The notes below the pieces were generated by a model that searched no databases, was not told where the DNA came from, and saw only the letters and a list, made by a program, of their open reading frames with translations. Source: Rhynchopus sp. YZ270_cl-10 (lineage: Eukaryota > Euglenozoa > Diplonemea > Diplonemida > Diplonemidae). From it: DNA of 64,000 bases. Made by a program: the position numbers and the translations under genes. The stretch lies in the NCBI GenBank assembly GCA_964035575.1, contig OZ037835.1, positions 1,054,001-1,118,000 of the forward strand, given 5' to 3'. Position 1 is the stretch's first letter; every line of letters begins with the position of its first letter. Below, one piece after another: positions 577 through 54,898 of this stretch.

Positions 577-1965
577 TCACATTCGCGAGGCACGAGAGTT
601 TGCAGCCTCAAGCTCCAAGTACAATACATCAATCAGCAACTGCACCACGTCTGTGTGCTTCTTAACAGCCGCTAAGTGCAACGCAGTGCGGTTTTCAGTG
701 TCTCGGTGATGCACATCCACCTCTGGCAAGCCCACAAGATAGTGCACAGTCTCGGTGTGCCCAAAATATGCCGCAGAGATAAGACACGTGCGGCCTTCGT
801 CGTCTGTGGCACGCACTCCCGCACCTGCTCTGACCAACATCTTCACAACGTCAAGTTCTCCTAAAGCGCTAGCATAGTGCAGAATCGAACGACCGTCGTT
901 GATTTTTGTTTCGATGTCTGCACCTGCATCAATCAGCACCTGCACCATGTCTGTTTCCTCCTCATCCAGCGCATACTCCACCGCATACTGCAACGCAGTG
1001 CGGCTGTCAGTGTCTCGGTGGTTCACATCCACCTCTGGCACGCCCACAAGATAGCGCACAGTCTCCGTGTGTCCAAAACATGCAGCAAGGATAAGACATG
1101 TGTCCCCTTGGTCGTCTGTGGCACGCACTCCCGCACCTGCTCTGACCAACATCTTCACAACGTCAAGTGCTCCTGAAGCGCAAGCAGTGTGCAAAAGCGA
1201 ACATCCGTGGTTGTCCTTTGCATCGATGTCTGCACCTGCATCAATCAGCACCTGCACCACGTCTGTTGCCTCCTTGTCCACTGCTAAGCGCAACGCAGTG
1301 CAGTTGTTACTGTGATGATTCACATCGACACCTGGCAAGCTCACAAGATAGCGCACAGTCTCGGTGTGTCCACGTTGTGCCGCAACGTACAGACACGTGC
1401 GCCCTTCATCGTCTGTGGCACGCACTCCCGCACCTGCTTCAACCAACATCTTCACAACCTCAAGTGCTCCTGAAGCGCAAGCATTGTGCAGAGGCGACCA
1501 TCCGATCTCGTCTTTCGTATGTAAGTCTGCCCCTGCATCAATCAAGACACGACACACTGCAGGGTCTGACCACATGGCCGGACAGGCACCTGCGCTGTAC
1601 TTGGAATCATGCGGGACAAACGCTACCTTGTTGCAGACGAACTTCCAATGCTGCAAGAGGACCTCCGTGCACGCAACGTGGTCTGCGTGGACACACTCAC
1701 TCAGCAGCATCCCAAAGCCCATCTGCGTTGTCTCAACATACGGAAGAAGCAGTGTGAGGCATTCATCGTGGTTCCCTCTGCATGCCTCGTGCGCAGCATC
1801 GAAGGCCACTTTCTTTCTGTGTGGGTTCAACTTCTCAAGGACCGCACGCACGGCAGTCGTGTCGCCGTTCCTGGCAGCCTCCATCAAGACCTCGTCTGCA
1901 GAAAGCTGTCTTCTCTTTCGTGGGTTCTTGTCCTGCGTGCTGTCTGCATGTCGCTTCTTCGGCAT
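577..1965 (-). CDS. Ankyrin-repeat protein
   Basis: The predicted protein has 462 residues. I start it at the ATG of MPKKRHADST rather than at the longer frame-open ATG near 2172, because a CA-rich tract ending in AG lies about 20 nt upstream, as at the other genes here, and the extension has no repeat character. The N-terminus carries basic clusters (KKRH, RKRR) that could be a nuclear signal. About residue 130 onward is made of ankyrin repeats, recognisable by GWSPLHNACASGALEVVKMLV, GRTCLYVAAQRGHTETVRYLV and ADIDAKDNHGCSLLHTACAS. Pairs of repeats recur almost identically (three copies of an AGAGVRATDD-type block), which suggests recent internal duplication. Ankyrin repeats bind other proteins, so the likely role is as a scaffold or adaptor. 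No catalytic domain is visible. The last repeat is followed by a short tail, LEAANSRASRM. Confidence 0.85.
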   Translation of the reverse strand: MPKKRHADSTQDKNPRKRRQLSADEVLMEAARNGDTTAVRAVLEKLNPHRKKVAFDAAHEACRGNHDECLTLLLPYVETTQMGFGMLLSECVHADHVACTEVLLQHWKFVCNKVAFVPHDSKYSAGACPAMWSDPAVCRVLIDAGADLHTKDEIGWSPLHNACASGALEVVKMLVEAGAGVRATDDEGRTCLYVAAQRGHTETVRYLVSLPGVDVNHHSNNCTALRLAVDKEATDVVQVLIDAGADIDAKDNHGCSLLHTACASGALDVVKMLVRAGAGVRATDDQGDTCLILAACFGHTETVRYLVGVPEVDVNHRDTDSRTALQYAVEYALDEEETDMVQVLIDAGADIETKINDGRSILHYASALGELDVVKMLVRAGAGVRATDDEGRTCLISAAYFGHTETVHYLVGLPEVDVHHRDTENRTALHLAAVKKHTDVVQLLIDVLYLELEAANSRASRM

Positions 1966-3797
1966 TGTGTGTTTGTGTGTTGTTGCTGTGTCTTTTGTGT
2001 TGGTTTCTTTTTGTGCAGAGGTTGTGGGTGACGAGAGAGGACGAAGAACACACATGGTAAGCATCCTTTTTCGTGTGTGTAATGTTACAAAAGCAGGGCA
2101 TGTTAAGATTACAGCCCTCTCGTGACAGTGCACCTTGGCACATGACCGGCTGTACCAGAGGGTGGACCCCAACCATGCAAACTCGTAAACCAGGTTAGTT
2201 TTGGCGGACTTGAGACGGACTATGGAGGACTTTCACAGTCCGCTATAGTCCGTCTCTACTCAGGTGGACTACGAAGTATGGTATATACAGCTAAAATAGT
2301 GGGACACATAGCTGCTGGCAGAGTTTCTCCTGTCTAACTTAAGACCTACTCGCAATTCCTGTTCCTCCTCCACTGGCGGGACCGGCCGTGGCGCAAGCCG
2401 CGACGGTCCCGCAGTGCCTCCCATAGGACACTGCGCTGTCTCCACCCACCCCACGCAAGGAAGAACGCCAAAGGTGCTCTCGTGCTGCAACCACAGACAA
2501 GCTGAGGTGCCAGACAAATGCACGAAAGCACCCCACAGTCGGCCACAGCTTCCCCTCTCCCATCATTTCCACAAAACCATGCAGGGAAGCGCCACACCCA
2601 AACCCCCCACACACTCACAACACTGTGCACCTCCACCTCCCTGTCCCCCACCCAACCCAACCCACAGACCTTCACCGCAACAGGGAGAACACCCAAACCC
2701 CACATCAACCTGCCACTCCCTTGGGTACTCTTCCTCCGGCAAAAGCCATCAAGAGAAACGGTTACCACCCCCCGGGGTTGCCTCCTCCTCCTCCAGAGAC
2801 TGCAGCATTGCAGCGCTGCTGCACTTCCCACACCCACCCCGCCCCACGCTGTCTCCCACCTCGCAGAAATAAAAGTCAAAAAAAAATAAAAACCCTTTTC
2901 ATCTTTTGTTTAGTTGGTACGCTACCCACGTCATACGCAAAGTATTTGTCCTAATAAAATAAATACATCCGTTCCACTCGATTAAATGTTGCCAGCTGTT
3001 TGCATGGTAGAGCACAAGGGGTGAAGGGGAAACGGTACGACTTATGGCAACCGAAGAACGCGTCTTTCATAAAGGCGTTGATTCAAAAGGGGGCAACAAT
3101 CACGAGAAGTGGGCATGGTGGTGGAGAGATTGAGAGAACAAATTTGGTCATTGCCATCAATTGGTGGCAATGACCAAATTTGTATCAATCAAGAACTTGT
3201 CCATTTTTCCGAAATGACCCCACTACAGTGGGGGTAGAGATCGGAAAATCCGAAAAAGTCCAAAAACCTCTCCAAAAAAACGGGGAAAAAACGATACTAC
3301 ATTTCCAGAATTTTGCTGTTTCCCCAGTAGTTTTTTTCTTGTGTGCGTGCGTACAGATTGTTCAGGGAGGTTGGGACCCGGAACAAGAAAAGAACTTGTG
3401 CTTCCCTAAATAATGAAAACCCCTTTCATCTTTTGTTTAGTTGGTACGCTACCCACGTCATACGCCCCAAGCACCCCAAGACGACAGTGAAAGACCACGT
3501 GGTGTCAACGAGTTCAGAGTGATGAATTGCAGAAAAAATGAGGGTTGGGTGGGGAGGTACGTTGTAATGAATAAGACGTGGGTTTTTGTGGGGATTCTTT
3601 TGCAGCACAGCGTAACAGAACACAATGTGTGGAACGTCTTGCTCAGCACAGCTCTCCTCTCGCACCAAGTAGTAGTCTGTGCCACGGTGAGCAAGACTGT
3701 GCCCCTCTTCTTCTCCGAACCAGAGGACGCAGCAGACATACTGCCAGAGACCCTCCACCTCGGGGAGGTGCTGCCCTCCCACCAACACACCACGTCG
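1966..3797. other. Intergenic region with dispersed repeats
   Basis: No host gene is seen. It holds a copy of the recurrent TGCTCTCGTGCTGCAACC repeat (2420-2720), a near-duplicate of the 2118-2180 segment found again at about 6390-6450, a twice-used motif (TTGGTACGCTACCCACGTCATACGC, at about 2915 and 3440), and an inverted copy of the GTGGGGTCA repeat (3190-3232). From about 3470 to the LRR stop at 3798 lies the probable 3'UTR of the next gene, which is nearly identical to that of the paralogue at 11044. Confidence 0.6.
2420..2720. repeat. Dispersed repeat R1, long copy
   Basis: This block is found at least eight times in the window. Long copies are here and at about 5145-5360, 44835-45120 and 53618-53825. 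Shorter copies are at about 24465-24560, 27212-27300, 37565-37660 and 43128-43195. The core includes CTCGTGCTGCAACCACAG, then ACAAGCTGAGGTGCCAGACA, then a C-rich tail. It has no convincing ORF, no terminal repeats and no A-tail that I can see. It sits between genes, often just upstream of LRR genes. It could be a decayed mobile element, a non-coding RNA gene or an intergenic regulatory module. Confidence 0.75.
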
Positions 3798-21611: not shown

Positions 21612-22238
21612 CGTGTAGGGTAGATCTGTGTGGAGTAGGGGGGTGGGGTGGGGTGGGCATCAAGGAGGTGATGAGAGGGTTGTGTGTTGTCGTAGATTTT
21701 TCAGATAAAAGGTGAAGTTGTTGATGCAGGCACCTCCGACTGAGCCACGTACGATGCCAGCCCCGGATGAAAGTGAAAGTACCCTGCAGCAGAAGGTGTA
21801 AAGAAACCTTATAGTTTGCCCGTACCGGAAGTGAAAGAGGGTGGTACATAACCGCTTGTCAGCCGGTGGCTCAGCCTCCGCGGAAGAGTTGTGAGCGTCC
21901 AGGTACTTTCGTTCGCTTGACCCAACTCTTAGTGAAGCAATAGTAGAGAAAAGAGAGCAAAGGGGGGAGCTCTCTCTCTCTCTTGGCGTCCCATGCTGTA
22001 GCGACAGTTGGGCAAAACTGAGGGGGAAACACAAGTGTGTCGTGTGTAAGAGAGGGGAGGGATGTTCTGTTAAAAGGGGCCGTTTGTTGTTTTGTTTTGA
22101 TGACTCTTTGGCTTTGCTGTTCCTCACACGTACTTACCCAAACACCCCACCTCCCCTCCCCAAACAAAACCCTTCTTCAGGAAAAGAAATCGAAACAAAG
22201 AATGCGTGAATCCCCCAATGTCGTACCCACCCCGACCC
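21612..22238. other. Intergenic; left boundary of the LRR segmental duplications
   Basis: From about 22016 the sequence matches 24890, 27630 and 37975 onward (GTGTGTCGTGTG, GATGTTCTGTTAAAAGG, then C-rich DNA leading into the octamer array). This marks the left side of a unit repeated four times. No ORF here is credible. Confidence 0.6.
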
Positions 22239-27858: not shown

Positions 27859-28434
27859 TATTCCCCTATTCCCCTATTCCCCTATTCCCCTATTCCCCTA
27901 TTCCCCTATTCCCCTATTCCCCTATTCCCCTATTCCCCTATTCCCCTATTCCCCTATTCCCCTATTCCCCTATTCCCCTATTCCCCTATTCCCCTATTCC
28001 CCTATTCCCCTATTCCCCTATTCCCCTATTCCCCTATTCCCCTATTCCCCTATTCCCCTATTCCCCTATTCCCCTATTCCCCTATTCCCCTATTCCCCTA
28101 TTCCCCTATTCCCCTATTCCCCTATTCCCCTATTCCCCTATTCCCCTATTCCCCTATTCCCCTATTCCCCTATTCCCCTATTCCCCTATTCCCCTATTCC
28201 CCTATTCCCCTATTCCCCTATTCCCCTATTCCCCTATTCCCCTATTCCCCTATTCCCCTATTCCCCTATTCCCCTATTCCCCTATTCCCCTATTCCCCTA
28301 TTCCCCTATTCCCCTATTCCCCTATTCCCCTATTCCCCTATTCCCCTATTCCCCTATTCCCCTATTCCCCTATTCCCCTATTCCCCTATTCCCCTATTCC
28401 CCTATTCCCCTATTCCCCTATTCCCCTATTCCCC
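27859..28434. repeat. TATTCCCC octamer array, 72 copies (locus C)
   Basis: Seventy-two perfect octamers end in a TATCCCC variant. It occupies the same downstream position relative to its LRR gene as the other three arrays. Confidence 0.95.
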
Positions 28435-30269
28435 TATCCCCCCTTCTCGTGGCAAGACCGACAAACGAGAGCAAAAACGTAACAACACTTCACAGAAGCT
28501 TCGGACCATGGTACTGCGGGTTGCCTCTGACGCATCGATGCAGATGCGGCTGACTGTGCTCTTGCCGGTTGCAAACGCACCGGCCTTCTATCATTCTGAG
28601 CCTCTCCGTCGCTTGCGGCACTGCTCGGGAGATTCGTCTCTGCTACGTTTCGGACGTGCATCAACAAGCTCCTTCAGGTTGCTTTCCTGTACTCTACTCG
28701 ACACAGGGCTGCTGCAGCCGGAGAGGTGGATGCTCTTCAACGAAGTGTACAGGTGAGCAGGTAGTGGACCCATGTGCATGACGATGCCGAGTGGGGACAA
28801 GTCAAGCACTGTGAGGCTGCTGCAGCTGGCAAGAAAGCCACCACCGATTTTATAAACCATGCACAGCGGCGTCAAGTCTAGTTCTGTGAGGCTGGTGCAG
28901 TCGTTGAGAAAGGAGTCTCCTATTTGCGCAATATTCTCGAGTGGCGACAAGTCTAGTTCTGTGAGGCCGCTGCAGCCCTCAAGAAAGCTGCCGTCTATGT
29001 CTGTGACATTGCTAAGTGGTGTCAGGTCTAGCGTTGTGAGGCTGGTGCATCCCTCAAGAAACCAACGATCGATGTCTGTAACATTGCTGAGTGGTGCCAA
29101 GTTTAGTTCTCTAAGGCCCCAGCAGTTGGCAAGAAAGCATTCGCTTATGTGTCCAAGATTGCTGAGTGGCGACAAGTCTAATACTGTGAGGCCGCTGCAG
29201 CCATCAAGAAATGAACCATCGACTTTCGTAACATGTCTAAGTGGTGCCAAGTTCAGCACTATGAGGCCGATGCAGCCATCAAAAAACGATTCACCAACTT
29301 GTGTAATCCTGCTAAGTGGCGACAAATCTAATGCTGTGAGGCCTGTGCAGTTGGCAAGAAAGTATTCACGTAGTTGTGTAAGATTGGCGAGCGATGTCAA
29401 GTCTAGTTCTGTGAGGCCGCTGCAGCCGTAGAGAAAGAAACCACCAACTACCGTAACCTTGCTGAGTGGTGCCAAGTTCAGCACTGTGAGGCTCTTGCAC
29501 TCGTTAAGAAAGCAGTCGCCTATGTCTGTGACATTGCTGAGTGGTGTCAGGTCTAGCGTTGTGAGGCTGGTGCACTCCTCGAGAAAGCTTCCGGCTACTT
29601 GTGTAATCCTGCTGAGTGGCGACAGGTCTAATACTGTGAGGCCTCTGCAGGTGGTTAGAAAGTTCTCGCCAATCCGCGTCACATTGCACAACCCAGAGAG
29701 GTTGATACTTGTCAACGTTGAACACCCATCAAGAAAATAGTCACCTATTTCCGTCACACACAAAACAGCACTCAGATCAAGTGTTGTTAACGTTGTGTCT
29801 CCCAAGAAGCCATGCGGAATGACAGTCGCAACCTCCGCCTGCAGAAGCAAACACGCCACCTCAGGATCCTCCACACTCTCCAGCCTCTCTGCAAAAATAA
29901 ACGTTTTTAAAAATAGGATGGAGCACCCCGGTCCGAAAAGGAATGCAGCCACCCCTGGCTTCAGGCTCGCGAACCCAGTATTGCAGTAACACTGGGTCTC
30001 ACGGGCCAAAAACCGAACAAAGAAAAGGAAAATGTTTGGGTTCAGCGACAGCGCCAATGGGCTGACGCGACGCTGAACCAACTTAAAATAAAATAAAAAA
30101 ATCTTGTATCAACTTGAAAAAGAAAAGCAATGAACAGCAACAGAGCCATTTGGGCTTACGCGTCGCTAAAGTAACTGAAAAACAATGTTTTAAAAACAAG
30201 AATGTCGTTGACCAAGATTGAAATACACGAAAAAGGTAAAATACTAAGAATTGCCTCATATTCCATGGG

Positions 30270-31210
30270 CATCGTTTCTGATGTTGTAGTTTGTCTGCTG
30301 AGTGATCACGCGCCCCCCCCTACTAGGGAGGTCTTAGGTTCATGCTTCGGCTTGCACGTAAAGAACTACCATGTCGCCGAAGTTAGCGGTCCTCGTATTC
30401 CGTGAGGTCTTTCTGATGGTGTTGTTTGACTGCTGAGTGATCACGCGCCCCCCCTACTAGGGAGGTCTTGGATTCAGGCTTCGGCTTGCACGTAAAAGCT
30501 ACCATGTCGTCGAAGTTAGCGGTCCTCGTATTCCGTGAGGTCTTTCTGATGTTGTAGTTTGTCTGCTGAGTGATCACGCGCCCCCCCTACTAGGGAGGTC
30601 TTAGGTTCAGGCTTCGGCTTACACGTAAAAGCTACCATGTCGTCGAAGTTAGCGGTCCTCGTATTCCATGAGGTCTTTCAGATGTTGTTGTTTGACTGCT
30701 GAGTGATCACGCGCCCCCCCTACTAGGGAGGTCTTAGGTTCAGGCTTCGGCTTACACGTAAAAGCTACCATGTCGTCGAAGTTAGCGGTCCTCGTATTCC
30801 ATGAGGTCTTTCAGATGTTGTTGTTTGACTGCTGAGTGATCACGCGCCCCCCCTGCTAGGGAGGTCTTGGATTCAGGCTTCGGCTTGCACGTAAAAGCTA
30901 CCATGTCGTCGAAGTTAGCGGTCCTCGTATTCCGTGAGGTCTTTCTGATGTTGTAGTTTGTCTGCTGAGTGATCACGCGCCCCCCCTACTAGGGAGGTCT
31001 TAGGTTCAGGCTTCGGCTTGCACGTAAAAAGCTACCATGTCGTCGAAGTTAGCGGTCCTCGTATTCCGTGAGGTCTTTCTGATGTTGTAGTTTGTCTGCT
31101 GAGTGATCACGCGCCCCCCCTACTAGGGAGGTCTTAGGTTCAGGCTTCGGCTTGCACGTAAAAAGCTACCATGTCGTCGAAGTTAGCGGTCCTCGTATTC
31201 CATGAGGCAC
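30270..31210. repeat. 133-134 bp tandem array, seven copies
   Basis: The motif GATCACGCGCCCCCC recurs at 30304, 30438, 30572, 30705, 30838, 30971 and 31105, giving a constant 133-134 bp period. Each unit also contains AGGTTCAGGCTTCGGCTT and CGAAGTTAGCGGTCCTCG. The period is not a multiple of three, so this is not a protein repeat. The whole array lies inside the SL-bearing insert. Confidence 0.92.
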
Positions 31211-31277
31211 TTCAGATGTTGTTCTTCTTTTTCTTCTTGTTCCGAGTCTTTGCCGCAGTCCTCTGCTTTGCCCGGGG

Positions 31278-31589
31278 TCACCTCGTGGAGGTGCTCGGTA
31301 AAACCCCGGTCTTCAGCCTTTTCGCAGTGATGTCTGTCTCACCCAACGCATGAAGAGCTGCTCTGGCCTCGAACTTCATCGACTTCGTCAACACAATCTT
31401 GTCCCCAGCACTCAGCTGCGTCATGTCCGCTCCTTCGCCCATCGCTTCGCATCCGAAATTCATCACAAAGCCGTCTTCAGGCAGCTCCACTGCAGACGCC
31501 ACCTTCCGCCGCATGTCCGTAGGTGTGTCATCCTCACCCAGCTCGACCACATGCTGCACTCCGTTCCACCCTTCGATAGTCAAATCCAT
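31278..31589 (-). CDS. Retroposed ubiquitin-like N-terminal fragment of an LRR-family gene
   Basis: The ORF has 103 residues starting MDLTIEGWNGVQHVVELG. It aligns along its length with the ubiquitin-like domain and linker of the LRR family: DMRRKVASAVELPEDGFVMN, MTQLSAGDKIVLTKSMKFEA, then ALHALGETDITAKRL. It then ends in an unrelated tail, LKTGVLPSTSTR, instead of entering LRRs. It is closest in style to LRR1 (EAMGEGADMTQLSAGD) rather than to the gene it landed in. Upstream is a 24-nt 5'UTR joined to the SL sequence. The source gene is not in this window. The ORF may be a truncated copy or represent a short Ubl-only family member. Confidence 0.6.
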   Translation of the reverse strand: MDLTIEGWNGVQHVVELGEDDTPTDMRRKVASAVELPEDGFVMNFGCEAMGEGADMTQLSAGDKIVLTKSMKFEARAALHALGETDITAKRLKTGVLPSTSTR

Positions 31590-31613
31590 TTTTTTGTGTT
31601 TCCGCGGTTTGCC

Positions 31614-31652
31614 CAATGAAGTACAGAAACTGTAGCTTTAGAAATCGTTGGT
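31614..31652 (-). other. Spliced-leader exon sequence embedded in genomic DNA
   Basis: Read on the minus strand, this begins ACCAACGATTT, continues with the block CTACAGTTTCTGTACTT and ends CATTG. It agrees with the diplonemid SL exon as I recall it, apart from about three differences (one indel after GATTT, one substitution beside it and one near the 3' end). It occupies the place where the paralogous genes have their AG acceptor, so it marks an SL-to-5'UTR junction preserved in DNA. The rest of an SL RNA gene (GT donor after the exon, Sm site) is absent: the next bases are GGCAAACC, a 5'UTR. Confidence 0.75.
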
Positions 31653-31734
31653 GGGGAGCCTCTCTGCAGTGATGTCGGTCTCACCCAACTTATGAAGCTC
31701 TGCAATGGCTTCGTACTTCTGCGTCTTCGTCAGG

Positions 31735-33370
31735 GTGGTAGTCCGTTTTAACGGTCTCTGGCAGGCCGGGCCTTCTTTCTGTGGCCTTCCCAACCAAAAG
31801 ACCCCCAAAAAACACAGGTACCTGCTGCGTTTAGTGGCATTTTACCCCAGTCCCTGGAACAGATCGGCAAGCCGACCAGCCCAGGTATGCATGCCAACAC
31901 TACTGGGGGTGCACTGTTCGATAGCATAAAAGAAAAAGTCAAAAAGTCAAAAAGACAAGAAGGTCAAACAAAATAGGTACTTCGAACAGGGCTGACAGGA
32001 GGGGATTCTCACCCGAGGTTCGGTGCCTGTCAGGCTGCGATTAGTGGTTCTGGGTGATTCCCTTCTTCCTAGCCACCGTTACCGCGGTGCCCACACCGTA
32101 AGAGAATGGGGACGGTTCACGACCGTTCGTTCGCGTCAGCAAAAGTAGGGGTCGGAGTCCAGGCCCGAACCGGAAACATTAACCTCCGTTTTTCGAAACA
32201 ATAAAAAGTAAAAATGAAAAAGAAAAATCAACAGCAAGAGCAGTGTTGTTGTAAAAGAAACAGCAGCACCGTCAGCTAACATGTCCACACAATATGGCAG
32301 ACGGCCACACAAAATTCCCCTGATTTGTACAGAGAAAGTTGTAACTTCTTCCTTACAAGTAAGGGAGTACCGGTAGGGAAGGAGTTACAACAAACAGTGA
32401 ACAAACTCAAGTACCAGCCTTTCCGCGTAGCACAGACCCTACATTTGGTAGTTGGTCTGCCCTACTGCCTCTTCTGCACCGTAGCTGAATGCCACGGCGA
32501 CAACTCCTTCATCTCCAACGTACCAAAGCACGTGAAAATAGAACAAAAATAAACACATTGGAAAACAACAGAGCATGTACCTGCAGAGTGCATACACCCT
32601 GAAAGTTTAACCTCTTCCTTCTAGCACAGACGTTGGTCTGCCCTACTGCCTCTTCTGCACCGTAGCTGAATGCCACGGCGACAACTTGTACCCACCTGCG
32701 AATGAATGCTCGCAGATCCCTTCTTCTACTAACGTATAAAAAACGTAAAAACAGACCAAAAACTACAACATGCCACACTGAATTAACGACAGAGCACGCA
32801 CCTGCAGATCCACAGATGTTTCACTACGGTGTACACAGCCTGAGGTTAAACACATAACACAAGAATTCTACTACGGCAAAAAGATGAAAACTGAACTGAA
32901 CTGAACAAAACTACAACACACCACACTGAATACACAAGAGCACGTACCTGCTGATCCACAGTTGTTTCACATACAGTGTACGCACCAACAAAGCAACACA
33001 ACGTTCCCATGCGGTCAAACGACAACACAGGAACAGCAACAATATTCCGTCACCAGTAGAGACACCGGCAACGCTTCCTTCTTGTACCTGGGATCCCCTC
33101 ATCGGCATCAACACACTCCCAGTCACCGCACAGGTAACAGATCCTTGAAACCCCTCCGAAGGGGTTTGCGTAGCCTACATAAGCTGGTGATCTGCCCGAA
33201 ATTGACTGTGATGTTGTATTAATAACCAGGGTTCCCACATCGGCTTGTTCCTCCTCCGGTCCCGAGCGAATCCATCATTGGAGAGGCGGCCGCCCACGCT
33301 GACTCAGTACCATGCGAACACGGCGTCCAGGGGCCCCACTTGGCGGTTGGTCAGACGTTAATTGCCCCCT
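31735..33370. mobile_element. Non-coding insert with 18-bp target duplication, copy 1
   Basis: It interrupts LRR gene 5 between TIILTKTQK and KYEAIAEL. It is flanked by TTCTGCGTCTTCGTCAGG at 31717-31734 and 33371-33388. The 1.64-kb body has no ORF above about 110 codons. It contains a hairpin CTGACAGG...CCTGTCAG (about 31991-32033), a hairpin AAACCCCTCCGAAGGGGTTT (about 33150-33170), and degenerate tandem units with GGTCTGCCCTACTGCCTCTT and GCCACGGCGACAACT. A second copy, at the same target position, is at 40565-42419. The long variable-length target duplication points to a non-autonomous retroelement, but no A-tail is visible. The orientation is not settled. Confidence 0.7.
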
Positions 33371-34047: not shown

Positions 34048-34265
34048 CACGACGGTGAAGTATAGTACATTACAAGTGAAGTTACTAGTAACGTTACAAG
34101 TGAAAAACCGTTACAAGTGAGTTACAAGTGGGATATATCAATTACAGGCAAAAGCAGGTGGTAACTGGTGGGTTACAAGTGGGTTACAAGTCAGTTACAT
34201 GTAACAAAAGTTACATGTAACTCACTTGTAACTCCACTTGTAACACCCGTTACTTCACCGTCGTG
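34048..34265. mobile_element. 218-bp inverted-repeat element (MITE) related to the RT element
   Basis: The ends are CACGACGGTGAAGTA and its inverse TACTTCACCGTCGTG. Inside are repeated TTACAAGTG and GTTACATGTAAC motifs. The sister locus near 43090-43100 (AACACCACCCAAGATAGG) shows the empty site, and a CA dinucleotide appears duplicated around the insert. Its left part matches the right end of the 3.26-kb element and its right part matches that element's left end. It is therefore an inverted, internally deleted relative of that element. Confidence 0.8.
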
Positions 34266-34303
34266 CACCCAAGATAGGCACCCCACCCCACCCACCCCAC
34301 CCA

Positions 34304-37300
34304 CACGACGGTGAAGTAACGGGTGTTACAAGTGGAGTTACAAGTGAGTTACATGTAACTTTTGTTACATGTAACATTACAAGTGCCACTTGTAATATAC
34401 ACGTATATTACATGTACCCATGTATATATTACACTGTACGCGCAGCAAATCCCTCATCCACACTCACGCAGAACCCATATTTCTCAAAAAAAAAAGACAC
34501 GTTTTTAACTATGTCCGTACTTCCAGCAAGCGGACTGCGCCAGACACACGGTTGTCACCACAGGCAAAGAAAGGAAAGTCGTCTGACCTCGAGGCAGATA
34601 ATCGAATCCAGAGCATGTTTGTGTCGTTCGCGGTCCTGGCCCTGTGGGAGGACAGACGCGCCCCTACCCTCAGTCTTCTCATTTTGTGGCTGGTGGGTAG
34701 GAGGGGGACCAGAAGAATGCACCGAGGTCCCAGGTCCTTGAACTGGACCAAGACACAGGCGGGCAAGCTCCGTCGGCGCAAGACGCCCTGCAAACGTCCG
34801 CCCTCTCCGGTCGCAGTCCCATGTCTTCGCAGGATAAGGGTTGCCGATGCTGTGGGAGGAGCGTGAATCCGGTCGTGTTGATAGCCCCAGGCTGTCAAAA
34901 CATAAAAAACACGGACCTAAAAGACGCGGAGGTTTTCAAGCGTCCAACGGTAGGCATAGCCCTATGTGAAGGTCACTACGAGACGATCCGGCCCACAGCG
35001 GAGGAGGGGGAAGATGTGTCGACGGCTTTGTTGAGGATCGCAGTCAGAGCGACGCTGAACCCCTTGGACCTGGATCTGCGCCCCATGTCGACCTCGAACC
35101 CCTCGGGGGAAGCTTTTGAGCTATGCTTGGGTAAGCCAGAGGAGGACTTCTGCTTCTGCCCGGTGGAGGGGTGCAAAAGGGGAATCATGGCACAGACGGA
35201 CGTGAAGTCTTTCACCCGCGATCAGCTTCTGGGGCACTTGAGACGCCACAAAGACAAGGAAGAGTAGGTGCCCGAACACATTCTGTCTTTCTTCGGCTAC
35301 AAAAGATGCGTCAGTGAGGACTGTTTTGCCCTGCTGAAGAAATCACAGAGCGCATGCAGGAGCTGTACACACCTCATGAAAAAGGTGCCCCTGCCAGGGA
35401 TCGAGGAACGCCTCACGCATGCCCTGAGGGAATGCCCACACTGGACATGATTGGCACAACCAGGTTCAAGCTGAAGGGGACTCACCAGACCTTCTCCATC
35501 GCTACACCCTTATCTTTCAGAGGGTTCTGCAGGAGATCCTGCAGCATCAGGATAAGAGGGCTTGGACCAAGTTTGCTGTGTTCTTCACCGTCCTGCACAG
35601 GGACCGTGGGGGTGGATGAGCTGGGTCACAAGATGCCAAACGGAGGTACTACAACTCCTGGAGACAGGACCTGAACTGGTGGGATGCGGGTGAGTGGTCG
35701 AATATGTGGGAGGAGCTCTGTCTGAAGTGCAAGCACGGCCGAAGTGGACGCCGGGTGACACGTTGGAGGCTCGCCAGAAACGTTCCCGCGTGAAAACGGC
35801 TGCAGGACTCCCTGGCCAAGCGCTGACCGCCCTCACCAGCGACGGCCTCGCCCCTCACGGACCGGAAACGTTGGCTAAACTGAAAGGTAAGCACCCAGCC
35901 TTTGATCCCCCTGTCGCCGCGTCCACTGGCCCCCTGAGGAACCCGTCCGGCCCGGCCGACTTCATCCCCAAGGAGGTCATAGCCGCGATCAGCAGCATGC
36001 CACGTGCCACTGCAGGAGGCCCCTCGAACCTCACCGGGTCCCTCCTTCGCACCCTTTGCAACCAGAAGCACACTCCTGGCACGCTCGCAGCCCTGTCGGC
36101 AGTGTTGTCTAGTCTGGCTCAAGGTAAAGCACACAAGGAGGTCGCGCCGTTCTTCGCAGGGGCCAAGCTGGTGGCCCTCAGGAAGGTGTCAAAAGGCAAA
36201 CCGGACGACGTGCGCCCGATTGCAGTTGGGGGTGTGATGCACCGTTTGGTTGGGAAGATCCTGGCGAACAGGCTGCGGAAGCGAGCGGCAGAAATTTTCC
36301 GCAAGGGGAACCAGGTGGGCGTGTCGACTACTTGGCGCCGAGGCAGCCACGACGATGGTTGCGCAGTACGCGAGGAGAAATGCTGGACAGGACAAGGTGA
36401 TTCTGAAGGTGGACTATCACAACGCTTTTAACACTGTTGATAGATCCACTTTCCTTGATGCGGCAGAGAAGCACATCCCTGAGATCTCACCCTGGGTGCG
36501 ATGGTGCTGCTCCGGCCGCACCTCCCTCTTCTATGGGGAAGACATCCTGCAGTCCCAGACAGGCGTGCAGCAAGGCGACCCCTTGGCCCTGTTCTGTTCT
36601 CTCTTGCGATTGCGGACATGACGGAACAGCTGAAGGCGAACAAAGCCCTTGATGGATCCATTTGGTACCTGGACGATGGATGCATCCGTGGCTCTCCTGA
36701 GGCTGTTAAGCATATGATGCGCTGGTGGTATCGAGCAAACGGGTTGGCCTGAAGGTGAACAATTCGAAGTGCGAGTTGGTGACACTCCGTGGCGACTCTG
36801 CAGCGGATTTGCGTGACAGGGGTTTTGACATCTGTGACGAGTCTGGTTCCCCTGGCTTCACCCTCCACCAGAAGAACTTCGATTTCCTGGGCGTCCCCAT
36901 CGGCACGGCGGAACACTGTAGGGAGTACATGCAGCGCAAGCATGACGAGTCGAAGCGGAACCTCGAGGCTCTTAAAGACCTCAAGGACTCACAGCATGCG
37001 TTCTACATCTTGCGCTTCTGCGAGGGGTTCTGCAAGATGGTATTCTACATGCGTGTAATATCATGTGTGGACCTAGGGGAGGACTACCTTCGGGACTTTG
37101 ACGCGGAGGTGGACAAGTGTTTGGCGGCGGTCCTGCACGATGAGCATGGGAAGATTTCGGAGCGGGCCCGCCTGCAGGCAGTGCTCCCCATCGCCATCGG
37201 AGGCTTAGGCGTCGCACTGCGGATCACTGGCCGGCAGCGGTCCTAGCGTCGCAGGCGGGGTGCCTCAAACTTGCCACGCAGTTGGACCCCTATTTTGAAT

Positions 37301-38210: not shown

Positions 38211-39042
38211 TATTCCCCTATTCCCCTATTCCCCTATTCCCCTATTCCCCTATTCCCCTATTCCCCTATTCCCCTATTCCCCTATTCCCCTATTCCCCTA
38301 TTCCCCTATTCCCCTATTCCCCTATTCCCCTATTCCCCTATTCCCCTATTCCCCTATTCCCCTATTCCCCTATTCCCCTATTCCCCTATTCCCCTATTCC
38401 CCTATTCCCCTATTCCCCTATTCCCCTATTCCCCTATTCCCCTATTCCCCTATTCCCCTATTCCCCTATTCCCCTATTCCCCTATTCCCCTATTCCCCTA
38501 TTCCCCTATTCCCCTATTCCCCTATTCCCCTATTCCCCTATTCCCCTATTCCCCTATTCCCCTATTCCCCTATTCCCCTATTCCCCTATTCCCCTATTCC
38601 CCTATTCCCCTATTCCCCTATTCCCCTATTCCCCTATTCCCCTATTCCCCTATTCCCCTATTCCCCTATTCCCCTATTCCCCTATTCCCCTATTCCCCTA
38701 TTCCCCTATTCCCCTATTCCCCTATTCCCCTATTCCCCTATTCCCCTATTCCCCTATTCCCCTATTCCCCTATTCCCCTATTCCCCTATTCCCCTATTCC
38801 CCTATTCCCCTATTCCCCTATTCCCCTATTCCCCTATTCCCCTATTCCCCTATTCCCCTATTCCCCTATTCCCCTATTCCCCTATTCCCCTATTCCCCTA
38901 TTCCCCTATTCCCCTATTCCCCTATTCCCCTATTCCCCTATTCCCCTATTCCCCTATTCCCCTATTCCCCTATTCCCCTATTCCCCTATTCCCCTATTCC
39001 CCTATTCCCCTATTCCCCTATTCCCCTATTCCCCTATTCCCC
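38211..39042. repeat. TATTCCCC octamer array, 104 copies (locus D)
   Basis: This is the longest of the four arrays, with 104 perfect octamers and then a TATCCCCC variant. The arrays at loci C and D share the terminal variant and a flanking CACTTCACAG variant, in line with their recent common origin. Confidence 0.95.
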
Positions 39043-39198
39043 TATCCCCCCTTCTCGTGGCAAGACCGACAAACGAGAGCAAAAACGTAACAACACTTCA
39101 CAGAAGCTTCGGACCATGGTACTGCGGGTTGCCTCTGACGCATCGATGCAGATGCGGCTGACTGTGCTCTTGCCGGTTGCAAACGCACCGGCCTTCTA

Positions 39199-42100
39199 TC
39201 ATTCTGAGCCTCTCCGTCGCTTGCGGCACTGCTCGGGAGATTCGTCTCTGCTACGTTTCGGACGTGCATCAACAAGCTCCTTCAGGTTGCTTTCCTGTAC
39301 TCTACTCGACACAGGGCTGCTGCAGCCGGAGAGGTGGATGCTCTTCAACGAAGTGTACAGGTGAGCAGGTAGTGGACCCATGTGCATGACGATGCCGAGT
39401 GGGGACAAGTCAAGCACTGTGAGGCTGCTGCAGCTGGCAAGAAAGCCACCACCGATTTTATAAACCATGCACAGCGGCGTCAAGTCTAGTTCTGTGAGGC
39501 TGGTGCAGTCGTTGAGAAAGGAGTCTCCTATTTGCGCAATATTCTCGAGTGGCGACAAGTCTAGTTCTGTGAGGCCGCTGCAGCCCTCAAGAAAGCTGCC
39601 GTCTATGTCTGTGACATTGCTAAGTGGTGTCAGGTCTAGCGTTGTGAGGCTGGTGCATCCCTCAAGAAACCAACGATCGATGTCTGTAACATTGCTGAGT
39701 GGTGCCAAGTTTAGTTCTCTAAGGCCCCAGCAGTTGGCAAGAAAGCATTCGCTTATGTGTCCAAGATTGCTGAGTGGCGACAAGTCTAATACTGTGAGGC
39801 CGCTGCAGCCATCAAGAAATGAACCATCGACTTTCGTAACATGTCTAAGTGGTGCCAAGTCCAGCACTGTGAGGCTCTCGCAGCCGTCACAAAAGGATTC
39901 ACCAACTTGTGTAATCCTGCTGAGTGGCGACAAATCTAATGCTGTGAGGCCTGTGCAGTTGGCAAGAAAGTATTGACGTAGTCGTGTAAGATTGGCGAGC
40001 GATGTCAAGTCTAGTTCTGTGAGGCCGCTGCAGCCATTAAGAAAGCAACTACCAACTATCGTAACCATGCTGAGTGGTGCCAAGTTCAGCACTGTGAGGC
40101 CGCTGCAGCCGTTAAGAAAACAGTCGCCTATGTCTGTGACATTGCTGAGTGGTGTCAGGTCTAGCGTTGTGAGGCTGGTGCACTCCTCGAGAAAGCTTCC
40201 GGCTACTTGTGTAATCCTGCTGAGTGGCGACAGGTCTAATACTGTGAGGCCTGTGCCGGTAAGAAAGCTCTCGCCAATCCGCGTCACATTGCACAACCCA
40301 GAGAGGTTGATACTTGTCAACGTTGAACACCCATCAAGAAAATAGTCACCTATTTCCGTCACACACAAAACAGCACTCAGATCAAGTGTTGTTAACGTTG
40401 TGTCTCCCAAGAAGCCATGCGGAATGACAGTCGCAACCTCCGCCTGCAGAAGCAAACACGCCACCTCAGGATCCTCCACACTCTCCAGCCTCTCTGCAGT
40501 GATGTCGGTCTCACCCAACTTATGAAGCTCTGCAATGGCTTGGTACTTCTGCGTCTTCGTCAGGTAGGGGTCCGTTTTAGGTCTCTGGCAGGCCGGGCCT
40601 TCTTTCTGTGGCCTTCCCAACCAAAAGACCCCCAAAAAACACAGGTACCTGCTGCGTTTAATGGCACTTTACCCCAGTCCCTGGAACAGATCGGCAAGCC
40701 GACCAGCCCAGGTATGCATGCCAACACTACTGGGGGTGCACTGTTCGATAGCATAAAAGAAAAGTCAAAAAGTCAAAAAGACAAGAAGGTCAAACAAAAT
40801 AGGTACTTCGAACAGGGCTGACAGGAGGGGATTCTCACCCGAGGTTCGGTGCCTGTCAGGCTGCGATTAGTGGTTCTGGGTGATTCCCTTCTTCCTAGCC
40901 ACCGTTACCGCGTTGCCCGCACCGTAAGAGAATGGGGACGGTTCACGACCGTTCGTACGCGTCAGTAAAAGTAGGGGTCGGAGTCCAGGCCCGAACCGGA
41001 AACATTAACCTCCGTTTTTCGAAACATTAAAAAGTAAAAATGAAAAAGAAAAATCAACAGCAAGAGCAGTGTTGTTGTAAAAGAAACAGCAGCACCGTCA
41101 GCTAACATGTCCACACAATATGGCAGACGGCCACACAAAATTCCCCTGATTTGTACAGAGAAAGTTGTAACTTCTTCCTTACAAGTAAGGGAGTGCCGGC
41201 AGGGAAGGAGTTACAACAAACAGTGAACAAACTCAAGTACCAGCCTTTCCGCGTAGCACAGACCCTACATTTGGTAGTTGGTCTGCCCTACTGCCTCATC
41301 TGCACCGTAGCTGGACGCCACGGCGACAACTCCTTCATCTATCAACGTACCAAAGCACGTGAAAATAGAACAAAAATAAACACAATGGAAAAACAGCAGA
41401 GCATGGACCTGCAGATCCACAGTTGTTTCACGTACAGTGCATACACCCTGAAAGCTTAACCTCTTCCTTCTAGCACAGACGTTGGTCTGCCCTACTGCCT
41501 CTTCTGCACCGTAGCTGAGCCACGGCGACAACTCCTTCATCTATCAACGTACCAAAGCACGTGAAAATAGAACAAAAATAAACACATTGGAAAAACAGCA
41601 GAGCATGTACCTGCAGATCCACAGTTGTTTCACGTACAATGCATACACCCTGAAAGTTTAACCTCTTCCTTCTAGCACAGACGTTGGTCTGCCCTACTAC
41701 TTCTTCTGCACCGTAGCTGAATGCCACGGCGACAACTTGTACCCACCTGCGAATGAATGTTCGCAGATCCCTTCTTCTACTAACGTATAAAAACGTAAAA
41801 ACAGACCAAAAACTACAACATGCCACACTGAATTAACGACAGAGCACGCACCTGCAGATCCACAGATGTTTCACTACGGTGTACACAGCCTGAGGTTAAA
41901 CACATAACACAAGAATTCTACTACGGCAAAAAGATGAAAACTGAACTGAACTGAACAAAACTACAACACACCACACTGAATACACAAGAGCACGTACCTG
42001 CTGATCCACAGTTGTTTCACATACAGTGTACGCACCAACAAAGCAACAAAACGTTCCCATGCGGTCAAACGACAACACAGGAACAGCAACAATATTCCGT

Positions 42101-51700: not shown

Positions 51701-53565
51701 TGTCTACTCCCCATCCCATCATCCTTCAGCATGCAGACAACACTGCCTACTCCCCATCCCATCATCCTTCAGCATAGAGACAACACTGCCTACTCCCCAT
51801 CCCATCATCCTTCAGCATGCAGACAACACTGCCTACTCCCCATCCCATCATCCTTCAGCATACAGACAACACTGTCTACTCCCCATCCCATCATCCTTCA
51901 GCATGCAGACAACACTGTCTACTCCCCATCCCATCATCCTTCAGCATACAGACAACACTGCCTACTCCCCACCCCATCATCCTTCAGCATACAGACAACA
52001 CTGCCTACTCCCCATCCCATCATCCTTCAGCATGCAGACAACACTGCCTACTCCCCATCCCATCATCCTTCAGCATACAGACAACACTGTCTACTCCCCA
52101 TCCCATCATCCTTCAGCATGCAGACAACACTGCCTACTCCCCATCCCATCATCCTTCAGCATGCAGACAACACTGCCTACTCCCCATCCCATCATCCTTC
52201 AGCATACAGACAACACTGTCTACTCCCCATCCCATCATCCTTCAGCATACAGACAACACTGCCTACTCCCCACCCCATCATCCTTCAGCATGCAGACAAC
52301 ACTGTCTACTCCCCATCCCATCATCCTTCAGCATGCAGACAACACTGCCTACTCCCCATCCCATCATCCTTCAGCATGCAGACAACACTGTCTACTCCCC
52401 ATCCCATCATCCTTCAGCATGCAGACAACACTGCCTACTCCCCATCCCATCATCCTTCAGCATACAGACAACACTGCCTACTCCCATCATCCTTCAGCAT
52501 GCAGACAACACTGTCTACTCCCCATCCCATCATCCTTCAGCATACAGACAACACTGTCTACTCCCCATCCCATCATCCTTCAGCATGCAGACAACACTGC
52601 CTACTCCCCATCCCATCATCCTTCAGCATAGAGACAACACTGCCTACTCCCCATCCCATCATCCTTCAGCATGCAGACAACACTGCCTACTCCCCATCCC
52701 ATCATCCTTCAGCATACAGACAACACTGTCTACTCCCCATCCCATCATCCTTCAGCATGCAGACAACACTGTCTACTCCCCATCCCATCATCCTTCAGCA
52801 TACAGACAACACTGCCTACTCCCCACCCCATCATCCTTCAGCATACAGACAACACTGCCTACTCCCCATCCCATCATCCTTCAGCATGCAGACAACACTG
52901 CCTACTCCCCATCCCATCATCCTTCAGCATACAGACAACACTGTCTACTCCCCATCCCATCATCCTTCAGCATGCAGACAACACTGCCTACTCCCCATCC
53001 CATCATCCTTCAGCATGCAGACAACACTGCCTACTCCCCATCCCATCATCCTTCAGCATACAGACAACACTGTCTACTCCCCATCCCATCATCCTTCAGC
53101 ATACAGACAACACTGCCTACTCCCCACCCCATCATCCTTCAGCATGCAGACAACACTGTCTACTCCCCATCCCATCATCCTTCAGCATGCAGACAACACT
53201 GCCTACTCCCCATCCCATCATCCTTCAGCATACAGACAACACTGTCTACTCCCCATCCCATCATCCTTCAGCATGCAGACAACACTGCCTACTCCCCATC
53301 CCATCATCCTTCAGCATACAGACAACACTGCCTACTCCCCATCCCATCATCCTTCAGCATGCAGACAACACTGTCTACTCCCCACCCCATCATCCTTCAG
53401 CATGCAGACAACACTGTCTACTCCCCATCCCATCATCCTTCAGCATACAGACAACACTGCCTACTCCCCATCCCATCATCCTTCAGCATACAGACAACAC
53501 TGCCTACTCCCCATCCCATCATCCTTCAGCATGCAGACAACACTGCCTACTCCCCACCCCATCAC
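45777..53565. repeat. 43-bp satellite array, about 180 monomers with higher-order structure
   Basis: The monomer contains CATCATCCTTCAGCAT, then GCAGACAACACTG or ACAGACAACACTG, then CCTACTCCCCATCC or TCTACTCCCCATCC. Variants recur: a 7-bp deletion giving CTACTCCCATCATCC, an ACCCC for ATCCC change, and CATAGAGAC. The CATAGAGAC variant appears five times (about 48615, 49807, 50619, 51773 and 52627), spaced 1192, 812, 1154 and 854 bp apart, which indicates duplication of multi-monomer blocks. The plus strand of the standard monomer has no stop in any frame, so ORFs of over 1000 codons appear in all three frames. I do not regard these as genes. Confidence 0.97.
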
Positions 53566-53617
53566 TTCAAAACCCAACCCCATCACGCACCTGAGTGCCG
53601 CCATCCCAGCCCTGCTG

Positions 53618-53825
53618 CAAGATGCAGTGCCTCCCATAGGACACTCCGCTGTCTGCACCCACCCCACGCAAGGAAGAACGCCAAAGGTGCTCTCGTGCTG
53701 CAACCACAGACAAGCTGAGGTGCCAGACAAATTGCACGAAAGCACCCCACGGCTGGTCACAGCTTCCACTCTCCCATCATTTCCACAAAACGATGCAGGG
53801 AAGCGCCACACCCAAACCCCCGCAC
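53618..53825. repeat. Dispersed repeat R1, copy 8
   Basis: It begins with CCTCCCATAGGACACT, as at 2420, so the left boundary of the repeat is shared between these two copies. It lies directly at the right end of the 43-bp satellite. Confidence 0.75.
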
Positions 53826-54898
53826 ACTGACAAAAAAAAGCAAAAACCCACCCCTGTCTCTACACTCACTCTTCTTCAGTCACATTCCAAAGCTAGAAAG
53901 GTGGTTCTCTTTTGGTGTGTTGTTGATATTTTGATTTGTATTCTTCTTTTTTTTTTTTTTTTTTTGTTGCTTTTTTTTTTGCTTTATTTCTGTTTTCTGT
54001 GTGGTTCCCCTATAGACACCTGATTGCCACGATGCTCCTTCCTTCACGTTTCTTTGGGGCAGGTTTATTTGAAAAATTTGGGAGGGAATCACGAAACGGG
54101 AAAGGTGGGGTGGAGGTGGGAATCCATAGGGGGGGTTGAAAAAAGAAAATCAAATATTCATAATTTCATAGACGAAAAACCACGGGGGGGTGGGGAAAAA
54201 AGACACCAAACCACCCCATAACCCCCAGAAATGTGTTGTTGTGCCGGAATTTCATAATTTACGCTTTTTCTTCGGCTTATTCATTTGGGAACCCACATCT
54301 TGTTCCTGAAGGGACCCAGGATAGGAATGGAGTGGTAGTGCGACGAAACCAAACGACTGGTGTTTTATTATTAGTGTTACAATGTCATGAGCAAGAGTTG
54401 GCAACTAAGTCGTTACAACTAGGAGTTCCACTGTAGTAGTTCCCCTTGCCCATTAGTCCGTCGTGGACAAGTTGAAGAACGTATTTCTTCTCTCCCCTAT
54501 TTCTCTGAAGTGTTCGATTTTTTAAAAAAAAGGGGGGCAGGGAGAAAAGAAACAAAGGAGGGGGGGGAAACGAAAAGAGAAAAAAAAAAGCTGATGCACG
54601 CCAACCCACAGAACGAAACGTATGACAGATCCAACACGCTTGATCTAATGCTTGATAACCCACCCCCCCCTCACCCCATGTCGATGGACATAAAATGTAT
54701 TGATGTGCAGCCACACAAATATTTTGTGAACAAAAAAGCCCCAGGAAGTATTACCTGGGGAGGGGAAAAAAAACTTTCTTTTTTGTAAGATGAAAGTAAG
54801 TCTCACTGTGTAGTCATGGTCACCCTTGAAGGAAGAAGAAAGACAGCACGAAAAAGAACATTATGACATGTAGATCACATGTGCCACATGTCATATAC

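Follow-up and report, generated by a model that had tools for sequence, protein, structure and literature searches.

A spliced-leader-tagged cDNA copy ending in a ribozyme-headed retroelement at the insertion site of a leucine-rich repeat gene family in a diplonemid

The insert, its target and its parts

The window, which is the whole stretch of 64,000 nucleotides analysed here (C3:1054001-1118000 of the Rhynchopus sp. YZ270_cl-10 assembly, which was searched over its 152.4 Mb and 126 contigs), carries an insert of 1763 bp on the minus strand at 29894-31656. Its boundaries come from flank alignment: the flank at 28001-29893 aligns to 38609-40498 (98.3%) and the flank at 31657-32843 to 40487-41653 (90.5%), and the two alignments overlap by 12 bp. 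The overlap is the empty target site (40487-40498) in the window's own duplicated flank, and on the two sides of the insert it is present as a 12-bp target-site duplication, AGCCTCTCTGCA on the plus strand, at 29882-29893 (3' side of the insert) and 31657-31668 (5' side). The target is a second gene of a leucine-rich repeat (LRR) family, whose sequence at 31657-31732 (minus strand) is broken at ..TGCAGAGAGGCT, the insertion site of this family.

Read along the minus strand, the insert consists of CCCC, a spliced leader (SL) exon, a 5'UTR, the 5' part of a gene, a ribozyme, repeats of 133 bp and a 3' tail. The four extra C (31653-31656, minus strand) lie between target and SL, are absent from both the empty site and the SL RNA genes, and are probably non-templated. 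Such bases are often found at the 5' join of Drosophila R2 insertions, according to the passages on these joins in PMC3774820. The SL exon of 39 nt (31614-31652) is directly followed by a 5'UTR of 24 nt (31590-31613) and an ATG (31587-31589), and the open frame that starts there runs to a TGA at 31278 (31278-31589, minus strand); it is gene-derived to 31308 and consists of ribozyme sequence beyond. The spliced host mRNA part of the insert thus comprises 345 nt (39 of SL, 24 of UTR and 282 coding). The insert departs from the gene family at ..GAAGACC/GGGG, with no extra bases at the junction between gene and element.

The remainder of the insert is element sequence. Seven tandem units of about 133 bp, found by repeat comparison, occupy 30254-31222 (minus strand), and a conserved 3' tail lies at 29894-29990 (minus strand) and ends in TTTATTTT at the target duplication. 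This end is not poly(A), and both an mRNA poly(A) tail and the 3' part of the gene are absent from the insert.

Other repeats are present in the window. A tandem array of 43-bp units with strong GC skew extends from 45644 to roughly 53500-54000 (182 overlapping register matches), and an array of 8-bp repeats begins at 22076, where a large part of the 235 overlapping register matches is exact. A perfect inverted repeat of 72 nt with a spacer of 38 nt lies at 34194-34375, and a related pair of arms is found at 34048/37492.

Spliced leader, source-type gene and other SL-fused loci

The SL exon of the insert agrees at 39/39 nt with that of the organism's own SL RNA genes. It matches the exon at 31 distinct SL-core places that were compared, all on contig C1, of which 30 are followed by the intron start GTATGGAAGC and the remaining one is an SL-fused copy. 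Reversed-pattern controls for the SL searches gave 0 matches in 152 Mb. The nearest SL among the printed ones consulted is a 39-nt entry named 'Euglenozoa 14', which bears no species name in that part of the source (PMC3795323). The start of the exon is ambiguous by 1 nt, the SL RNA genes reading AACC and the insert CCCC-ACC. We take the 'Euglenozoa 14' entry to be that of Diplonema. The passages concerned in the Diplonema genome paper state an SL exon of 39 bp (PMC10161547), and by its sequence the SL of the window genome looks diplonemid, in line with what the first-pass annotation had read from the window about the host.

The 5' end of the LRR-family gene in the insert (31308-31613, minus strand) has a source-type copy at C91:116117-116424, and the G at 31307 is shared between gene and element. 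The C91 gene is identical to window positions 31307-31613 at 306/307 nt, and the next-best copy reaches 87% (among the best 40 of 1900 candidates). The C91 gene encodes a product of 303 aa with BspA-type leucine-rich repeats (Pfam LRR_5) and is uninterrupted; beyond the point where the window copy departs it reads on as GTGAAGGATCC. Just upstream of the shared part it reads ...CACAACAAG directly followed by GGCAAACC, so that an AG acceptor and the SL join coincide to the base. A pyrimidine-rich stretch precedes ...CCCATCAAGATACCACAACAAG, the sequence that leads up to the shared part and ends in this AG. Hence, the SL exon meets the gene at the AG acceptor as it would in mature RNA, and the window insert is a cDNA copy of an SL trans-spliced RNA.

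The first-pass annotation had described, on the minus strand, a 39-bp SL-like exon joined to a 24-nt 5'UTR and an ATG where paralogous genes have an AG acceptor, next to a 12-bp target duplication. All of these features were recovered on comparison with the SL RNA genes, the C91 gene and the empty site. Its view of the locus as the reverse-transcribed end of an mRNA held in part: the insert is a cDNA with its SL at the acceptor, but it is more than a simple mRNA end, as its mRNA part gives way to an HDV-like ribozyme with which a site-specific retroelement begins. Likewise, the extent it had assigned (31278-31656) has the right boundary at 31656, but the insert continues to 29894, and 31278 is just the TGA of the fused frame. 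The lack of poly(A), which it had regarded as the weak point, is real but is explained by the 3' end being an element tail.

Exact SL cores were found 734 times in the genome. The base or bases that follow are A, C or T in 33 cases, G and then A, C or T in 691, and GG in 10. The SL RNA intron start follows 654 of the 734 cores, which are the SL RNA genes, and is lacking at 80. Among these 80, the SL core is followed by something other than GT in 50 cases, forming 46 loci, and by GT with another intron start in 30, of which 11 read GTATAC; some of the 19 GT-type cores that do not read GTATAC may be changed SL RNA genes. What the first-pass annotation had named as its own refutation does not hold: the 50 cores without GT show that not every genomic copy continues into the SL RNA intron, and the exon of the SL RNA genes is no different from that of the insert.

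A sample of 27 distinct SL-fused loci was drawn from 30 of the 33 cores followed by A, C or T, together with the window's own among the 17 other non-GT sites. Between 36 and 39 contiguous SL nucleotides are kept at 23 of the 27 loci, and all 39 at 16. At nine of the 27 the SL has one or two partial SLs next to it, measuring 22, 16 or 10 nt. These nested relic SLs belong to one element family, in which the SL is followed by the partial SLs, a 5'UTR and an open frame (L041, L044, L047, L048, L049, L056, L059, L061 and L066). The 22- and 16-nt units are consistent with re-splicing at AGs within an older SL; the 10-nt unit has no AG before it. Nested relics of this kind would be a counter of retrotransposition rounds outside dinoflagellates.

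A reverse transcriptase (RT) match lies 3.3-4.3 kb downstream on the same strand at seven of the 46 SL-fused loci, among the RT matches listed. As controls, one match upstream and one on the other strand were found within 8 kb of these loci, again among the RT matches listed. The downstream matches argue that at least part of the SL tags represent 5' ends of elements that carry an RT. Two of the seven RT-associated loci are near-identical neighbours on one contig (C44:14373 and C44:36745), which lie about 22 kb apart, share identical upstream sequence and probably represent a segmental duplication.

The ribozyme and the element family

The candidate HDV-like ribozyme lies at 31242-31307 on the minus strand, and its first base is at the junction between gene and element. 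In Rfam, RF02682 scores 28.2 bits over 31240-31307 with an E value of 8.5e-4, which falls short of the gathering score of 44, and no match reaches gathering scores anywhere in the window. The ribozyme call therefore draws on the sub-threshold match, on the other copies and on a structure descriptor. The other copies score 37.0-37.7 bits in 8/8 cases, also below gathering, and the window copy is the lowest of the nine (28.2 vs at least 37.0 bits). Reading from the junction base, and with the descriptor, the pairings are P1 GGGGT/ACCCC, P2 CCGAG/CTCGG, P3 CACCTC/GAGGTG and P4 GCAG/CTGC, and the nested pseudoknot topology P1-P2-P3-P1-P4-P2 is found in the Rfam matches and by the descriptor alike. 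The outer pair of P4 has an A in place of C solely in the window copy among 11 compared, with the loss of one P4 pair; this change could be later than the insertion.

The descriptor gave three distinct starts on both strands of the window, namely 31307, its neighbour 31306, and 34434, the last in AT-rich sequence by the inverted repeat. Its chance rate was 12 starts per 4.416 Mb on one strand of Markov-1 sequence, which corresponds to about 0.35 for the two strands of the window. Over the loci, leaving aside L009-L038 and L069-L098, it gave one start away from the ribozyme copies, in L039. As judged from sequence, the predicted ribozyme would normally cut at the junction, before the first G.

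The ribozyme is found at 26 places in the genome and the 3' tail at at least 40 (the best 40 of 175 candidates), and the two were paired by coordinates. Seven ribozyme-to-tail copies measure 7359-7372 bp, and by coordinates all seven have a PF00078 (RVT_1) match at +4051 to +4069 (among the best 150 of 739 RT candidates). Sixteen ribozyme copies of 1.4-4.5 kb have no RT match among the same best 150 of 739, and three of the 26 have no tail at a plausible distance. The window copy itself contains no RT; it measures 1417 bp from ribozyme to tail end and is closest in length to a copy of 1413 bp on C29. In the long copies (C3:1032666-1040026, C62:910672-918035 and five others) the open frame around the RT spans 1455-2452 aa, in one case nearly the whole element length, and it may be open, in frame with the host gene, all the way across the ribozyme.

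The ribozyme copies have a common place of insertion. Among the 26, 13 were examined, and in 12 of them the same LRR-family site lies upstream of the ribozyme, which amounts to a shared insertion point within a multicopy gene. Ten of 11 were established by reading (the window, L003, L004, L099, L100 and L102-L106), and for two further copies on C4 the alignment spans the junction between gene and ribozyme (among the best 40 of 1900 candidates). The exception, L101 (C55:580708-580850), has its ribozyme off the LRR-family site with only an AGAGGT-like match upstream, which suggests an off-target insertion or a rearrangement. Repeated insertion at one place is indicated by two arrangements. At L102 the order is element tail, target motif, ribozyme, and at L006 (about 1780-3060) two tandem copies of another element type, which has the 3' tail in common, occupy this same site of the LRR gene. 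The duplication at L006 was read as 18-19 bp, and its element differs at the 5' end, for which Rfam gives no match.

An R2-like enzyme is likely to be encoded in the element of about 7.36 kb, since most non-LTR elements with a restriction-like endonuclease (RLE) are target-specific, as stated in the part of PMC4640811 on target choice. No PF03372 (APE) match falls inside the seven long copies among the best 150 of 246 candidates, which is only suggestive with regard to the endonuclease type. Membership in the SLACS/CZAR group (CRE clade) was considered and rejected, as the target is wrong: the LRR-family site stands upstream in those 12 copies.

Origin of the insert and its meaning

The insert is best explained, with a probability of about 0.78, as deriving from a site-specific non-LTR-type retrotransposon of the multicopy LRR gene family: a non-autonomous copy of it would have been read through together with its host gene, received an SL by trans-splicing, been left uncut by its ribozyme and been inserted at the family site of another LRR gene. 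The element would be transcribed together with the host LRR gene, and the HDV-like ribozyme that heads it would ordinarily free the element RNA from the host leader. In the present case, the transcript of an element copy in a C91-type gene would have been trans-spliced at the AG acceptor and would have escaped cutting. The partner enzyme of the 7.36-kb element, acting in trans, would then nick the family target site in another LRR gene, and target-primed reverse transcription may have run from the element tail through ribozyme and host mRNA to the capped 5' end. The whole cDNA would finally have been joined, with the 12-bp target duplication and four extra C. If the RNA is recognised by the element tail, the missing poly(A) is explained; likewise, the lowest Rfam score of nine and the lost P4 pair fit an absence of cutting. 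The R2 element self-cleaves from its co-transcript at or near its 5' junction, as the passages on R2 processing in PMC3774820 describe.

Some findings speak against this read-through. All nine Rfam-scored copies fall below the curated cut-off, the duplication at the window is 12 bp vs 18-19 bp at L006, and one of the 13 examined copies (L101) is off the family site. A donor with the element inside a C91-type gene is absent from the assembly, none of the 26 ribozyme copies being on C91, and the sole close gene copy among the best 40 of 1900 matches is the C91 gene, which is empty of the element.

R2 enzymes are capable of template jumping. A jump from a cut element RNA to a cut host leader would give the identical exact junction without any failure of the ribozyme, and is here regarded as unlikely, in that the junction bears no extra bases, the low score and lost P4 pair of the window ribozyme suit an RNA that was not cut, and two RNAs would be needed from one rare donor. 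Retroposition by any LINE of a mature SL mRNA from a C91-type gene, with the element part already present or added independently, would agree with the recurrence of SL-tagged copies in this genome, as in dinoflagellates (passages on SL retrogenes in PMC6050394). Such an ordinary processed retrogene was set aside as very improbable: poly(A) and the 3' part of the gene are both missing, the mRNA part stops at the very point where the element starts in L003 and L004, two further members of the family, and at the target duplication it is the element tail that closes the insert. The abundance of SL RNA genes (the 654 cores with intron start) offers material for an accident at the DNA level, in which recombination or an assembly error would have joined a fragment of an SL RNA gene to the LRR gene. 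The splice junction is exact, the exon stopping at the splice donor and the gene beginning right after the AG acceptor, and SL exons are fused at many loci with 36-39 contiguous nucleotides kept at 23/27; an accidental join was therefore set aside as extremely unlikely.

The proposed read-through of a ribozyme-headed element has several relatives among known systems. R2 in 28S rDNA has a 5' HDV-like ribozyme at or near the junction, inserts at a single place in a multicopy gene, is transcribed along with its host and shows variable 5' joins, according to the passages concerned in PMC3774820 and PMC11331408, and internally deleted non-autonomous copies are described for R2-type elements in PMC3414825. 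Target specificity is likewise shared with RLE elements (in the section cited above of PMC4640811). Unlike R2, the present element has as its target a protein-coding LRR gene family rather than rDNA, a host leader with an SL, and a captured copy with the whole 5' leader. For R2, the template can include host sequence that precedes the element, and pairing of this sequence with the target can influence how the 5' end is joined (the same parts of PMC3774820 and PMC11331408), whereas here the whole 345-nt leader was inserted.

The trypanosomatid L1Tc/ingi (Pr77) and SIDER/NARTc elements belong to a related host group and also combine a 5' HDV-like ribozyme with short non-autonomous partners (passages in PMC4035085 and PMC12278014). 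L1Tc/ingi carry an APE endonuclease, the Pr77 promoter and poly(A), as given in the latter; in contrast, the present element has no poly(A) and its seven long copies have no PF03372 among the matches listed (best 150 of 246). SLACS/CZAR/CRE are similar in being euglenozoan, site-specific non-LTR elements tied to SL biology (same source, in the part on these elements). These insert into SL RNA genes, while here the SL was added to the host mRNA by trans-splicing and insertion took place in an LRR gene. Similarly, in the SL-tagged retrogenes of dinoflagellates an SL in DNA marks a reverse-transcribed mRNA, and repeated rounds leave tandem relic SLs, as the relevant passages of PMC6050394 describe. 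Unlike those retrogenes, the tagged RNA here ends in a retroelement and not in poly(A), and adjacent relic SLs occur here in one element family.

SL-marked retrogenes with relic SLs, ribozyme-headed elements and elements that target SL genes are thus already known, to go by the passages cited from PMC6050394, PMC3774820, PMC4035085 and PMC12278014. In the genome paper on Diplonema (PMC10161547), SL exons of 39 bp and SLACS/R2-like proteins are described, and the passages concerned make no mention of SL-tagged copies. Among the titles and opening abstract lines of the papers listed by topic, none describes an SL-captured retroelement read-through, a diplonemid element headed by a ribozyme, or a non-LTR element whose insertions are specific to one protein-coding gene family. 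The combination of a protein-coding family as target with an uncut SL-leader transcript fixed in DNA is rated as a new form of these known systems.

A ribozyme at the head of an element removes what was transcribed upstream, and for this reason the uncut co-transcripts of such elements are normally lost. In the window the DNA preserves the 5' leader in full, with the trans-spliced exon as its mark, so that the copied RNA is legible base by base, and direct tests become possible of ribozyme failure, of the choice of template and of joining at the 5' end. The locus points to a site-specific element at home in a protein-coding gene family of a little-studied marine group. The wider proposition, for which the odds appear about even, is that diplonemids host a ribozyme-headed, site-specific retrotransposon that would have its niche not in RNA genes but at a coding site of an expanding protein family and whose expression would depend on the trans-spliced transcript of the host. 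Where its ribozyme fails, 5' ends of host genes would be duplicated, together with the SL, into other members, and the element would both live on the gene family and reshape it.
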